This document shows positions 1,997 to 26,329 of a stretch of DNA of 64,000 nucleotides, one piece after another. The stretch covers positions 6,894,501-6,958,500 of the forward strand of contig NZ_JACHMB010000001.1 in NCBI RefSeq assembly GCF_014204795.1. The letters are read 5' to 3'. Both the position numbers and the translations under genes were made by a program. The first letter of the stretch is position 1. Every line of letters starts with the position of its first letter. Under the pieces are notes generated by a model, which saw only the letters and a list, made by a program, of their open reading frames with translations, was not told the DNA's origin and ran no database searches. The DNA is from Nonomuraea jabiensis (GTDB lineage: Bacteria > Actinomycetota > Actinomycetes > Streptosporangiales > Streptosporangiaceae).

Positions 1997-2974
1997 GTGA
2001 GGTTTGGCAGGGTGCCGGTGGCCGCGGGTCTCGCGTTCGGGCTGGTCCTGTCCCCTATGGGAGCCGCCGTCGCTGATCCCAGGCCCACCCTCGGGCAGGC
2101 CAAGGCCAAGCTCGACAAGCTCAACGACAAGGCCGACAAGGTCGTCGACCGCTTCAACACGGCCACCGAGCGCTACAAGGCCGCCAAGGGCGCCTACACC
2201 AAGCTGAACGACCGCTACAAGTCCAAGCTGGCGACGGTCGAGGACCTGCGTACCCAGGTGATCGGCATGGCCGTCGACAGCTACAAGCTCGGCACCGACC
2301 TGACCTCCTCCTTGCCCGGCCTGATGAGCGCGGACCGCCCCGACGACTTCCTGATGCGTCTGGCGCTGGCCGGGCAGCTCTCGCGGGAGCGGGCGGAGAA
2401 GCTGGCCGCGTTCGACCGGGAGAACCGCGGGCTGAAGGTCGAGCGGGACAAGGCGGAGGAGGCGCTGGAGGCGGCCGACCGGGAACGGGACGGGGTCGAG
2501 AAGGAGCGATCGGAGATCATGAAGCTGATCTCCGAGCAGAAGAAGCTCCTGAAGAAGCTGGGCGCCTACAACCCCGGCAACCCCAACAGCGTCGGCATCC
2601 AGTACACGGGCCCGGCCTCGGGCAACGCCGCCGCCGTCCTGCGCTTCGCCTATGCCCAGGTGGGCAAGCCGTACGTGTTCGGCGGGACGGGTCCGGGCGG
2701 CTGGGACTGCTCGGGCCTGACCCAGGCGGCGTGGCGCGCCGCGGGCGTGTCGCTGCCGCGCACGACCTGGCAGCAGTGGGCCTGGGGCGCGAGCCGTAAG
2801 GTCTCACTGAGCGCCCTCCAGCCGGGGGACCTCATTTTCAGCTCGAGCTTGGGTCACGTCAGTATCTACGCCGGCGACGGGAAAATCGTTCACGCGCCGC
2901 AGACCGGCGATGTGGTCAAGGTCGTCAAGCTCTCGTCGTACGGCGGCCGCCTCGTCGGTGCCATCCGCCCTTAG
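1997..2974 (+). CDS. Secreted coiled-coil NlpC/P60 peptidoglycan hydrolase (RipA-like)
   Basis: 325 residues from GTG 1997, with GGGAGG at 1984-1989. Residues 1-28 form a signal peptide ending near AAVADP. Residues about 35-190 are a Lys/Glu/Asp-rich coiled coil, as in RipA- and CwlO-type cell-wall hydrolases. A C-terminal C40 peptidase domain (about 205-325) carries Cys238 (WDCSG), His287 (LGHVS) and His299 (IVHAP), the catalytic triad of the family. Such enzymes cut the D-Glu-meso-DAP bond of stem peptides and aid cell separation or spore germination. A second NlpC/P60 gene lies 560 bp downstream with its own regulatory region, so the two look like paralogues under different control. Confidence 0.93.
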   Translation: MRFGRVPVAAGLAFGLVLSPMGAAVADPRPTLGQAKAKLDKLNDKADKVVDRFNTATERYKAAKGAYTKLNDRYKSKLATVEDLRTQVIGMAVDSYKLGTDLTSSLPGLMSADRPDDFLMRLALAGQLSRERAEKLAAFDRENRGLKVERDKAEEALEAADRERDGVEKERSEIMKLISEQKKLLKKLGAYNPGNPNSVGIQYTGPASGNAAAVLRFAYAQVGKPYVFGGTGPGGWDCSGLTQAAWRAAGVSLPRTTWQQWAWGASRKVSLSALQPGDLIFSSSLGHVSIYAGDGKIVHAPQTGDVVKVVKLSSYGGRLVGAIRP

Positions 2975-3056
2975 TCTACTACGCCGCATCGTTGACCGGG
3001 TCCGGTCGCGATCGGCGGGCGGGGTGCCATGGGAACGATCCACAAGCCGCAACAAG

Positions 3057-3072
3057 TGTGACAAACGCGACA
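3057..3072. promoter_or_regulatory. Second, degenerate CRP-like site
   Basis: TGTGACAAACGCGACA keeps the TGTGA half-site and N6 spacing, but its right half is CGACA instead of TCACA. It lies 48 bp, centre to centre, from the perfect site at 3104-3120. It may be a weak cooperative site or chance. Confidence 0.3.
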
Positions 3073-3100
3073 TTTGGGGCCTGACAAACAGGCGCGAAAG

Positions 3101-3124
3101 CAAATGTGAGCAGAGTCACATTTG
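3101..3124. promoter_or_regulatory. Perfect CRP-type palindrome upstream of riboswitch-controlled NlpC/P60 gene
   Basis: CAAATGTGA-GCAGAG-TCACATTTG is a perfect 9-bp inverted repeat containing TGTGA-N6-TCACA, the consensus of E. coli CRP and mycobacterial Rv3676. It lies about 430 bp upstream of the gene start. A promoter could be TTGCCG (3205-3210)/TAGCTT (3229-3234), or one with TATCTG near 3176-3181 as its -10. From memory, the mycobacterial cell-wall gene rpfA also has both a CRP site and a c-di-AMP leader, so the pairing is plausible. Confidence 0.65.
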
Positions 3125-3365
3125 GATAACGGAACCTGGCGTTCCAGCAGGGATTTTCATCCTTACTGACTCCACTATCTGATCTTTACAGGCGGTGTCC
3201 CGCTTTGCCGATCCTTGACCCTTCGGCGTAGCTTCTGGCGACGTCGCGGTGAACAAGCCATGTCCTCCGCGAACCCGCACCGGTCTCATCCGGTGTGAGA
3301 CAGATAAAGATCCGCTGGTCAACCGCCCAAACGTCCCCATATCGACACATCGATCGGGCGGTCGG

Positions 3366-3520
3366 CCTGCCGAATCCGTGCAGCCAGGAGGCACGGAGCC
3401 GGGGACCCAGCGATCCCAGTTCCCCAGGGATCAGGGGTGAATCGGCGCGCACCTCGCGCCGTAGGGCGACTTCCAGGCCCGAATCCGTCAGCTAACCCGG
3501 TAGGCATTCGTGGAAGACAC
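3366..3520 (+). ncRNA. c-di-AMP riboswitch (ydaO/yuaA leader)
   Basis: The leader of the second NlpC/P60 gene carries the conserved blocks of the ydaO class in order: TGCCGAATCCG near 3368, GGGGACCCAG (3401-3410), GGGGTGAATCGG (3434-3445), GTAGGGCGAC (3461-3470), then CCGAATCCGTCAGCTAACC and GGTAGGC (about 3479-3505). These are the two pseudo-symmetric ligand-binding halves known from Bacillus ydaO. In actinobacteria this class mostly precedes cell-wall hydrolases and resuscitation factors, and ligand binding usually turns the gene off. The exact ends are approximate. The ribosome site AAGGAG follows at once (3521-3526). Confidence 0.92.
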
Positions 3521-3531
3521 AAGGAGAAATC

Positions 3532-4110
3532 CTGTCTACCTCTCTGCATAACCCCCGTCTGTCCCGCATTGCCCTGAGTGGCGTAGCGCTCACGATGACC
3601 GTGACGGCCGGAGGTGCGATCCTCCATGCCCCAACGGCTCAGGCGGCGACGACCGAGTCGGCTTCGGCGACCAAGGCGGCCGCAACCGCCGGCACCTCGA
3701 AGACGACCTCGGCCGCGGCGCTGAGGGCGGCCAAAGTGGCCCGTCAGAAGGTGAAGGCCCGCAAGGCCGTCTCCGTGGCCAAAAACCAGGTCGGCGACCC
3801 GTACAGGTACGGAGCCACGGGCCCTGGTTCGTTCGACTGCTCCGGACTCGTCCAGTACGCCTGGAAGAAGGCCGGGGTGAAGCTCCCGCGCGTGGCGGCC
3901 AGCCAGTTCGCCCGCATCAGGAACAAGGTCTCGTGGCGGAACCTGCAGCCCGGCGACCTGATGTTCTTCAGGGGGCTCGGCCATGTGGGCATGTATGTCG
4001 GCAAGGGCAAGATGGTCCACTCGCCTCGGACAGGCGAACGGGTACGCATCGACAAGCTGGGAGGGTGGCGGCGGGCGTCGTTCGTCGGCGCTGTCCGTCC
4101 CGGCATGTGA
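3532..4110 (+). CDS. Secreted NlpC/P60 hydrolase under c-di-AMP riboswitch control
   Basis: 192 residues if translation starts at CTG 3532, five bases after AAGGAG. The first ATG (3595) would remove most of the signal peptide, whereas the CTG start gives a normal one (STSLHNPRLSRIALSG, then a hydrophobic run ending AHP/TAQA near residue 38). After an Ala/Lys-rich linker, the C40 domain (about 85-190) has Cys103 (FDCSG), His151 (LGHVG) and His163 (MVHSP), a complete triad. It is a short relative of the upstream paralogue without the coiled coil. Role: peptidoglycan stem-peptide cleavage outside the membrane, controlled by c-di-AMP and perhaps a CRP-like factor. A terminator follows directly. 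Confidence 0.9.
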   Translation: MSTSLHNPRLSRIALSGVALTMTVTAGGAILHAPTAQAATTESASATKAAATAGTSKTTSAAALRAAKVARQKVKARKAVSVAKNQVGDPYRYGATGPGSFDCSGLVQYAWKKAGVKLPRVAASQFARIRNKVSWRNLQPGDLMFFRGLGHVGMYVGKGKMVHSPRTGERVRIDKLGGWRRASFVGAVRPGM

Positions 4111-4114
4111 AGAA

Positions 4115-4167
4115 GCCCCGCCCGGGTTCTCCCGGGCGGGGCTCTCCGATTTCCTTTTTTGTTTTTT
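4115..4167 (+). terminator. Intrinsic terminator of the NlpC/P60 gene
   Basis: A perfect 12-bp stem, GCCCCGCCCGGG (4115-4126) with CCCGGGCGGGGC (4131-4142), has a TTCT loop and is followed after a few bases by a T-rich tract (4150-4167). It starts four bases after the stop codon. Confidence 0.93.
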
Positions 4168-4170
4168 TAC

Positions 4171-4937
4171 GGCGGAGCACGGGCGGCGCCACCCGCCGTA
4201 CTCCGGCACAGGGCCTCCAGGGAGACGCCCTCTGACCCGCACATGGCCCCCACCGCAACGGCGCCCCCTCAACACAGCAACCCCACACCCACACCGCCGG
4301 TCCCACGCCTCACGGCCCCGCAGCCACCACGACCCACGCTGGCCGGTCCCACGCCTCGGGGCCTCGCAGCCCCACGACCCAGGACCCTCGGTTGGCGGCT
4401 CACGGCCCCACGACCTACGACCCTCGGTCGTCGCCTCACGGGCCCCACGACCACGACACGCGGCCTACAACCGCCCGGCCCACGGCTCACAGCCCCACGC
4501 CCCTCGGCTCATGGCTCACGGCCCGACGGCGCGTCGCTCAGCCCTGCGGCTCACGGCCTCACGGTCTCACGCTCTGGCTCATGCCCCTCCCCCCGGCTCA
4601 TGTCCCTCGGCCCGTGGCTCATGTCCCTCGGCCCGTGGCTCACGTCCCTCGGCCCACGAGCACGCTCCTCGGCCCACGCCCCAGGCCCCAGGCCCCACGC
4701 TCCGCGCCCCACGCCCCGGGACCCACCGCCCTGCGGCTGACGGCCCGCGGCTCGCGGGCCAGGGACTCCCGGCCGATGGCCCAGTGTGCGGTGCTCTGGC
4801 TCGCGGGCGACCCCATGTGGTGCGGATGGACGGCTCGCAAGGGTGCGCGGTCCTTCGCTTGCCCGTCTCCCCTCGTGCTCCCGGTCACGCCGGAGGTGGT
4901 CGAGTTCCGGAGTGCGGGGTCTGGGCTGGGGGGCGGC
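4171..4937. other. Gene-free C-rich repetitive stretch
   Basis: About 770 bases in which the top strand is rich in C and A and poor in T. Words such as GGCTCACGG, CGGCCCACG and CCTCGG recur throughout. Several reading frames stay open at once and give only Pro/Arg/His/Thr-rich low-complexity peptides without motifs, so I see no supported gene. It separates a strong terminator from a leaderless peptidase gene. Confidence 0.6.
4595..4657 (+). repeat. Three tandem 21-bp repeats
   Basis: Units at 4595-4615, 4616-4636 and 4637-4657. The first two are identical (GGCTCATGTCCCTCGGCCCGT) and the third differs at three positions. This is the clearest part of the wider repetitive stretch. Confidence 0.85.
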
Positions 4938-25318: not shown

Positions 25319-25993
25319 TCACGACGCCTCGTCCGGGGCCGGGAGGGCGGCCAGGCGGGAGAGGGCGCGCGGGTCCAGCACGACCACCTCGCCGGCCCTG
25401 ATCTCGATCATGCCCCGCCGCTCGAACCCGCGCAGGGCCCGGTTGACGCTCACCCTGGTCGCGCCGATCTCGGCCCCGAGGCCGGCCTGTCCCGCGTGGA
25501 GCGGCACCCGGCCCGTGGCGCAGCGCCGTACCAGCCAGGTGGCCACGCGGGAGGGCACGTCGCGCACCGCCGCGTCGGTGAGCCGCTCGTCGAGGTCCCG
25601 TACGGTGGCGGCCAGCGTCCGCAGCAGCCGGGCCGCGACGGAGGGTTCGGCGGCGAGGAGTTCCAGCACCGCCGAGCGCGGCAGGTAGGCCACCTCCACC
25701 GCCGTCATGGCCGTCCGCGTCGCCCGGTGCGGGCCGTCCACGAGGAGGGCCGTCTTGTCGAACGCCACGGGCGCCTCCTCCACGGCGAGCACCACCTCCT
25801 TGCCCTCGGCGCTCACCCGCCCGGCCTTGACCCGCCCGTCGAGCAGCACGATCAGGTGCTCCGCCGGGTCGCCCTCGGTGCACAGCACCTGCCCGGCCGG
25901 GTAGCGCCGGCGCCGCGACAGCGCCGCGAGCGCGCCCAGCCGCCCGTCGCCGAGCCCGCCGAACATCGGCAGGTCGGCCAGCGTGTACGTCAT
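25319..25993 (-). CDS. Crp/Fnr-family transcriptional regulator
   Basis: 224 residues from the ATG at 25991-25993 (MTYTLADLPMFGGLGDG). Residues about 15-120 form a cyclic-nucleotide-binding-type beta-roll (GQVLCTEGDPAEHLIVLLDG). The phosphate-binding cassette is degenerate (FDKTALLVDGPHRATRTAMT instead of GEIGL..RSA), so cAMP binding is doubtful. The C-terminal winged helix has LGAEIGATRVSVNRALRGFERRG. A TGTAT-N6-ATACA palindrome covers its own start codon, which suggests autoregulation. It is not obviously the protein that would read the TGTGA-N6-TCACA site at 3104. Confidence 0.9.
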   Translation of the reverse strand: MTYTLADLPMFGGLGDGRLGALAALSRRRRYPAGQVLCTEGDPAEHLIVLLDGRVKAGRVSAEGKEVVLAVEEAPVAFDKTALLVDGPHRATRTAMTAVEVAYLPRSAVLELLAAEPSVAARLLRTLAATVRDLDERLTDAAVRDVPSRVATWLVRRCATGRVPLHAGQAGLGAEIGATRVSVNRALRGFERRGMIEIRAGEVVVLDPRALSRLAALPAPDEAS

Positions 25994-26008
25994 GTATCCC
26001 GATATACA
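25993..26008. promoter_or_regulatory. Crp/Fnr-type palindrome at the regulator's own start
   Basis: TGTAT-CCCGAT-ATACA is a perfect 5-bp inverted repeat with the N6 spacing typical of Crp/Fnr sites. It overlaps the start codon and start site of the Crp/Fnr gene and lies 58 bp upstream of the divergent YciI gene, so it could control both. Confidence 0.55.
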
Positions 26009-26052
26009 CCAGCCCGGTGCCCGGCGATGCTGACCGCCGGCCCCGGGGCCCC

Positions 26053-26058
26053 TAGCGT
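26053..26058 (+). promoter_or_regulatory. -10 element of a leaderless transcript (TAGCGT)
   Basis: TAGCGT ends seven bases before the ATG at 26066; no Shine-Dalgarno is seen. Confidence 0.55.
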
Positions 26059-26065
26059 GCCGGGC

Positions 26066-26329
26066 ATGGCGAGATACGTACTCCACCTGGCCTTCGACGG
26101 CGACCCCGGCCGCCTCGCGGCGCGTCCCGCGCACCGCGAACACCTGCGGCGGCTCAAGGACCAGGGACGGCTGGTGACCGCCGGGCCCTGGGCGGACGAT
26201 TCGGGGGCGCTGCACGTGTACGAGGTGGCGGACGAGGCCGAGCTGCGCGGCATCCTCCGGGAGGATCCGTACACGGCGGTGAACGGTTACGAGGTCGTCC
26301 TCATGAAGCAGTGGACCCCGATCCTGTGA
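26066..26329 (+). CDS. YciI-family protein
   Basis: 87 residues from ATG 26066 (MARYVLHLAFDGDPGRLAAR). The family pattern is present: an early RPAHREHLRRLKDQGRL with a conserved His, then TAGPWADDSGALHVYEVAD with the conserved Asp, and DPYTAVNGYEVVLMKQW. YciI-like proteins have a ferredoxin-like fold with a putative His-Asp active site. Most have no known role; one branch acts as dehydrochlorinase-type enzymes. The N-terminal FDGDP resembles the putative-stress variants. It is followed by a very strong terminator. Confidence 0.88.
   Translation: MARYVLHLAFDGDPGRLAARPAHREHLRRLKDQGRLVTAGPWADDSGALHVYEVADEAELRGILREDPYTAVNGYEVVLMKQWTPIL

Follow-up and report, generated by a model that had tools for sequence, protein, structure and literature searches.

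A CRP-type palindrome upstream of a c-di-AMP riboswitch in the probable control region of an NlpC/P60 peptidase gene with a likely CTG start in Nonomuraea jabiensis

The window analyzed here is a 64,000-nucleotide stretch of the Nonomuraea jabiensis genome, at positions 6,894,501–6,958,500 of a single contig of 13,173,116 bases. Close to its beginning it carries two NlpC/P60 genes in tandem, the second of which is preceded by a long and conserved upstream region. The features of this locus are as follows.

1997–2974, plus strand: upstream NlpC/P60 paralogue with a GTG start (Pfam NLPC_P60, 78.6 bits)
3048–3071, no strand assigned: three imperfect 9-bp direct repeats (units CGCAAC, TGTGAC, CGCGAC), a possible MtrA-type site
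3101–3124, no strand assigned: CRP-type palindrome with 9-bp arms, core TGTGA-N6-TCACA at 3105–3120, conserved in 68/68 loci
3115–3131, plus strand: GTCACA-N5-ATAACG, a weak candidate for a further MtrA-type direct repeat, sharing sequence with the right arm of the palindrome
3203–3238, plus strand: conserved promoter candidate CTTTGCC-N19-TAGCTTCTGG, spacing kept in 59/68 loci
3243–3272, plus strand: conserved hairpin with the loop around CAAGCCATG, close to where the transcript is inferred to begin (by eye, from folded segments)
3358–3521, plus strand: c-di-AMP riboswitch aptamer of the ydaO/yuaA class (RF00379, 80.4 bits)
3470–3475, plus strand: pseudoknot loop strand CUUCCA, CTTCC invariant in 60 aligned loci
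3493–3495, plus strand: TAA within the aptamer motif GCTAAC, a stop in the CTG frame, which opens 36 nt before the CTG
3511–3516, plus strand: pseudoknot tail strand UGGAAG, GGAAG invariant in 60 aligned loci
3522–3526, plus strand: Shine-Dalgarno AGGAG, separated by 5 nt from the pseudoknot strand on one side and by 5 nt from the CTG on the other
3532–4110, plus strand: NlpC/P60 peptidase gene with a very probable CTG start, 192 codons and TGA (Pfam NLPC_P60)
4116–4168, plus strand: GC-rich hairpin followed by T runs, a probable intrinsic terminator after the gene, identified in the sequence by eye

A sequence-only reading of this DNA had described a perfect TGTGA-N6-TCACA site in 9-bp arms, followed by a complete ydaO-class leader and a cell-wall hydrolase gene, and an upstream paralogue devoid of both elements. 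All of these descriptions hold. The palindrome reads CAAATGTGA-GCAGAG-TCACATTTG, its arms being exactly complementary in a 9-6-9 arrangement. The leader matches RF00379 in full length (model positions 1–134, E 4.2e-17, the score being well over the gathering score of 38), and this is the only Rfam match in the window at gathering score. The product of the second gene scores 88.3 bits with NLPC_P60, against a cutoff of 23, and its signal-peptide-like N-terminus suggests that it is secreted. For the paralogue at 1997 there is no RF00379 match, and 1850–2010 contains no palindrome even when three mismatches are allowed. Many relatives have a further match to this query beside the target gene (by eye, uncounted). 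The gene is followed by the terminator-like hairpin, which lies outside the region scanned for terminators (2960–3620), and by a low-complexity stretch rich in CTCACGGCCCACG-like sequence at about 4200–4740 (by eye).

Orthologous loci were taken by protein similarity, as the best matches of two protein searches with additional picks, 72 in all. They comprise the loci of the top 30 matches in 59 genomes, 22 new loci among the top 30 matches in 200 genomes of the family, and 20 places picked from the 200-genome listing for extra genera. Four loci (L090–L093), weak protein matches without the aptamer motif, were dropped. The analyzed set thus consists of 68 aptamer-bearing loci (L022–L089) with 23 genus labels; as related genomes are not independent, these represent fewer than 68 events.

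Judged inside the window alone, the palindrome is not beyond chance. It is the only perfect TGTGA-N6-TCACA there, but allowing one mismatch gives two sites where 0.62 would be expected, a count reached by 13 of 100 shuffles; moreover, when the sequence is left free, nine perfect 9-6-9 inverted repeats are found in the window, the palindrome among them. The whole genome has 13 perfect TGTGA-N6-TCACA sites, versus none for a reversed control pattern. Among the orthologous loci we searched the slot 250–450 nt upstream of the aptamer 3' motif. The palindrome was present with at most one mismatch in 68/68 loci (53 perfect, 15 with one mismatch), the null being 0.9% of Markov-shuffled 200-nt slots (∼187/20400, fraction 0.0092). 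In a few loci the automatic pick was the neighbouring repeat array; separate listings place the palindrome there too, with one mismatch. This conservation raises the palindrome above chance. TGTGA is complete in 67/68 loci, while in the right arm TCA is kept in 67/68, the following C in 59/68, and the final A in 64/68. The two-fold symmetric TGTGA-N6-TCACA expected of a CRP operator is found at 3101–3124, and on these sequence data the palindrome is likely a functional CRP target.

Outside the family, the motif could be anchored in 40/69 loci (29 were dropped), and 4/40 had a palindrome with one mismatch, against the null of 0.9%; at least six of the 40 (L190, L191, L194, L196, L211, and L252) are visibly mis-anchored. 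These four c-di-AMP leaders with a one-mismatch CRP-type palindrome upstream, from other families of the class, are L208, L219, L236, and L245. A distribution of the CRP site and riboswitch stacking wider than the family is no more than suggested by these data.

The sequence-only reading, sound in outline and partly supported by our results, did not include the probable MtrA-type repeats upstream of the palindrome and the CTG start. The TGTGAC-type units of the array, repeated with the period of 9 bp, read GTCACA-NNN on the opposite strand; the mycobacterial MtrA repeat is given as GTCACAgcg (PMC13189361). Upstream of the palindrome, two units with at most 2/12 mismatches are found in 51/68 loci (null 2.0%), and three units with at most 2/18 mismatches in 26/68 (null 0/6800). 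The triple-repeat pattern is not specific, as with up to two mismatches it has 146 matches genome-wide (11 for the control); the array in the window differs from the pattern by three mismatches and hence is outside that listing. The second direct repeat begins in the right arm of the palindrome, where RTCACA-N5-RTAAC is present in 40/68 loci, and resembles the Streptomyces MtrA motif reported as GtnAcC-n5-GTnAcn (PMC13189361). The repeats are assigned to MtrA by resemblance, for example, to GTCACAgcg, and we are somewhat inclined to expect that MtrA binds here.

Two other readings of the palindrome have to be considered. It could be a functionless chance occurrence of TGTGA-N6-TCACA, as the lack of enrichment within the window would allow; against this, it is kept in all 68 loci and 23 genera though much of the flanking sequence diverges, and the genome-wide count far exceeds that of the reversed control. 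We reject this reading because of the conservation across the loci, and its probability is close to nil. Alternatively, the palindrome and the repeats could form one array for MtrA or another response regulator, with no role for CRP. The repeats upstream and in the right arm agree with such an array, as does the MtrA gene of this genome (L105, 393 bits versus the cutoff of 300), and C. glutamicum nlpC is reportedly repressed by MtrA (PMC9960051). However, the inverted-repeat symmetry fits a CRP dimer and not a direct repeat, the 6-bp spacing, which the search pattern prescribes, holds throughout, and 17/68 loci have no repeats at the two-mismatch threshold whereas the palindrome is present in all 68. 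We consider an array without CRP unlikely. Still, given the TGTGAC repeats and the GTCACA arm, MtrA could explain a part of the conservation.

No sigma-70 consensus promoter was found in 2960–3620, where shuffles average 0.3, and this candidate was dropped in favour of a conserved block. The block, CTTTGCC-N18/19-TANCTTC, has this spacing in 59/68 loci, and we read it as the promoter, which would place the transcription start near 3241. The center of the palindrome is then near −128, where a CRP activator would not ordinarily sit. At this distance (∼128 bp) from the best promoter candidate, CRP could either activate or repress, activation being only slightly favoured. Between the palindrome and the promoter candidate lies a GATCTTTA block (3181–3190), conserved in many loci (by eye); this block and other conserved stretches there may be an operator of another factor. 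The hairpin with the CAAGCCATG loop sits between the promoter candidate and the aptamer. A leader peptide starting at an ATG near 3270 was considered and dropped, as a 1-nt indel among the relatives shifts its frame (by eye).

A loop-tail pseudoknot belongs to the ydaO class. In the leader alignment, which covers 60/68 loci since eight were left out to thin near-duplicates, CTTCC of the loop strand and GGAAG of the tail strand, which lies just past the aptamer, do not vary. In 24 diverse aptamers (77 loci were tried), the mean longest helix between the loop and the tail was 5.12 bp, a value reached in 0/1000 tail shuffles (mean 4.48, largest 5.08), with helices of 4 bp or less in 7/24 aptamers. 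The riboswitch is predicted, with little doubt, to answer c-di-AMP.

The aptamer core GGUAGGC ends at 3505, leaving 16 nt to the Shine-Dalgarno sequence at 3522. The c-di-AMP dependent termination named first in the earlier proposed test is the less favoured mode: a Rho-independent terminator as the expression platform was rejected, as none was found in 2960–3620, weak evidence in itself since shuffles average only 0.4. The minimum-free-energy folds of the leader were no better than those of shuffles (z −1.05 and z −0.83). The fold of the leader in the window allows GGUAGGC to pair with GUCUACC, which lies immediately past the start; this anti-P1 helix breaks in several relatives (by eye), and we make no claim on it. 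From the missing terminator and the Shine-Dalgarno sequence 5 nt from the pseudoknot strand we infer translational shut-off by c-di-AMP, and hold mainly translational control to be rather probable.

The ORF list, which allowed ATG, GTG, and TTG, sets the start of the gene at ATG 3595 and misses CTG 3532. Yet this CTG is invariant in 68/68 loci, and in 68/68 AGGAG or AGGAT precedes it at a distance of exactly 5 nt. An upstream stop limits the frame, which opens 36 nt before the CTG in 65 loci and 9 nt before it in three; in all 68, this stretch is free of ATG, GTG, and TTG. Downstream, the position of the nearest canonical start in frame differs among the loci, ranging between codons 5 and 38, and in the window the first in-frame ATG is codon 22. 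By their pattern of differences, codons 2–20 vary in a coding fashion: 30 same-genus loci (L048 and L051 were left out for indels, and L069 is absent) show 33, 35, and 107 minor alleles at the first, second, and third codon position, respectively, and codons 7–12 encode NPRLSR in 30/30 of these loci, with synonymous changes. In paralogues, the same place is taken by CTG in eight, GTG in three, and TTG in two of 13 loci of the L007 group, and by CTG in five and TTG in three of eight loci of another group (both by eye). The invariant CTG, the spacing to the Shine-Dalgarno sequence, the coding-type variation, and the starts of the paralogues together indicate that translation very probably starts at CTG 3532.

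Both conclusions on the leader have a competitor. The riboswitch may work by transcription termination, as reported for rpfA of S. coelicolor (PMC10117811), and that riboswitch, too, is said to have no canonical terminator (PMC9960051). On the other hand, the scan of 2960–3620 gave no terminator-like site, merely 16 nt separate the aptamer core from the Shine-Dalgarno sequence, and in the closest parallel, C. glutamicum nlpC, control is reportedly at translation (PMC9960051), so that termination is the less probable mode, though a possible one. As for the start, CTG is a rare start codon, and the conserved triplet could belong to an RNA element, conceivable from the GGUAGGC/GUCUACC pairing just past it, with translation beginning at a downstream ATG, GTG, or TTG. 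This is improbable, in view of the coding-type variation in codons 2–20 and the constant NPRLSR, which lies upstream of the ATG at codon 22, the presence of CTG, TTG, or GTG at the same place in paralogues, and the constant 5-nt Shine-Dalgarno spacing in 68/68 loci.

With CTG as the start, one may ask why it is kept. As a tentative suggestion, less likely than not, the CTG could itself contribute to the switch: being a weak start next to a Shine-Dalgarno sequence that follows the pseudoknot by 5 nt, it would make initiation unusually easy to block, and selection would have kept the CTG in 23 genera and would also employ it, besides TTG and GTG, in the two further groups of riboswitch-controlled NlpC/P60 genes. 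If true, a riboswitch platform would here be linked with a non-canonical start codon under conservation. Literature searches on CUG starts listed nothing on such a conserved CTG. The CTG start would also correct the gene start where software picks a downstream ATG or GTG, and it offers a clean test of start-codon strength as part of a translational riboswitch.

Candidate regulators for these elements are encoded in the genome. The best solved relative of the CRP candidate, L095, is 3d0s (residues 4–226, E 8.1e-88, 296.6 bits), which we take to be the CRP of M. tuberculosis. With the NCBIfam CRP model NF008732, L095 scores 105.3, below the cutoff of 266. The HTH_Crp_2 model has 32 matches in the genome, L095 being one of them, so another protein of the CRP/FNR family could be the binder. 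The window itself contains a gene of a CRP/FNR-family regulator (25319–26215, minus strand, HTH_Crp_2 54.7 bits). DisA is encoded by L104 (516.5 bits, cutoff 201), and the Guanylate_cyc domain has five matches, all over the cutoff, that are putative cyclases. In addition, a nucleotide-cyclase domain and a CRP-family HTH match are ∼0.5 kb apart at G000:C1:2376629-2377876 (L296 and L094), possibly a dedicated signalling pair.

The proposal that two nucleotide messengers jointly set the level of this enzyme stands in part. In its favour, the two elements are conserved together, and a CRP homologue, cyclase-domain genes, and DisA are encoded; the action of CRP at initiation is unproven, and the best promoter candidate is far from the palindrome. 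In the mechanism that we propose, cAMP-bound CRP, most likely the L095 protein, would bind at 3101–3124 and tune transcription; it would probably activate, either at long range or by opposing MtrA. DisA would make c-di-AMP, which at high levels would close the aptamer and the pseudoknot. The closed structure would bar the 30S ribosome from the Shine-Dalgarno sequence and the weak CTG, resulting in less enzyme, while at low c-di-AMP the ribosome site would be open. Overall, we consider it probable that these elements act in this way as stacked controls on a single gene, that of a secreted NlpC/P60 cell-wall peptidase.

A similar arrangement is reported for cg2402/nlpC of C. glutamicum, an NlpC/P60 gene with sites of GlxR, MtrA, and EsrR and a c-di-AMP riboswitch, which is of the ydaO type, has no canonical terminator, and most likely acts on translation (PMC9960051). 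By that account, the two loci share an NlpC/P60 gene, a site of a cAMP-dependent regulator (GlxR in C. glutamicum), a c-di-AMP riboswitch, and the lack of a detected terminator; the likeness is one of reported features. An MtrA site is reported for cg2402/nlpC; here a candidate MtrA site is proposed from the resemblance of the repeats. Moreover, cg2402/nlpC is said to head a seven-gene operon and to have an EsrR site, whereas the Nonomuraea gene is directly followed by the terminator-like hairpin and has the CTG start.

The primary papers on the rpfA leader of S. coelicolor are reportedly St-Onge et al. 2015 and St-Onge and Elliot 2017. According to later sources, rpfA is under Crp (PMC5693915) and its leader contains a c-di-AMP riboswitch, with transcription termination reported (PMC10117811). 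Thus, as far as these accounts go, rpfA resembles the Nonomuraea gene in Crp regulation and in a leader c-di-AMP riboswitch on a gene of a cell-wall hydrolase, and differs in that its enzyme is a resuscitation-promoting factor and not an NlpC/P60 protein, and in the reported termination. The pairing of a CRP site with a c-di-AMP riboswitch is, therefore, already published in kind (rpfA, cg2402) and is not new; the Nonomuraea case is a further, broadly conserved example, distinguished by the CTG start. Known from single genes of Corynebacterium and Streptomyces, the stacking of a CRP-type site, a possible MtrA site, and a c-di-AMP riboswitch on cell-wall hydrolase genes has also been long conserved in the family of Nonomuraea, which suggests that cAMP, envelope-stress, and c-di-AMP signals have been repeatedly combined on peptidoglycan cutting.

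The genome has eight c-di-AMP riboswitches. Pfam finds a cell-wall hydrolase domain in six of the eight genes (NlpC/P60 in three, CHAP in one, and glycosyl hydrolase 25 in two) and gives no match for the other two. The seven riboswitches other than the one studied here are of the same aptamer class, with a hydrolase domain in 5/7 genes and no Pfam match in 2/7; none of the seven has the palindrome, with up to two mismatches, within 700 nt upstream. For one of the paralogues, L007, and its 12 nearest same-genus counterparts, the palindrome was found in 0/13 loci, two of which have less than 310 nt of upstream sequence. These paralogue groups (L007, L276–L295) were assigned by similarity and leader sequence, without a tree. 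In the genera g43 and g86, a second riboswitch-bearing NlpC/P60 gene is preceded by the palindrome in 8/8 loci (six perfect, two with one mismatch), so the stacking arose or persisted on more than one NlpC/P60 gene.
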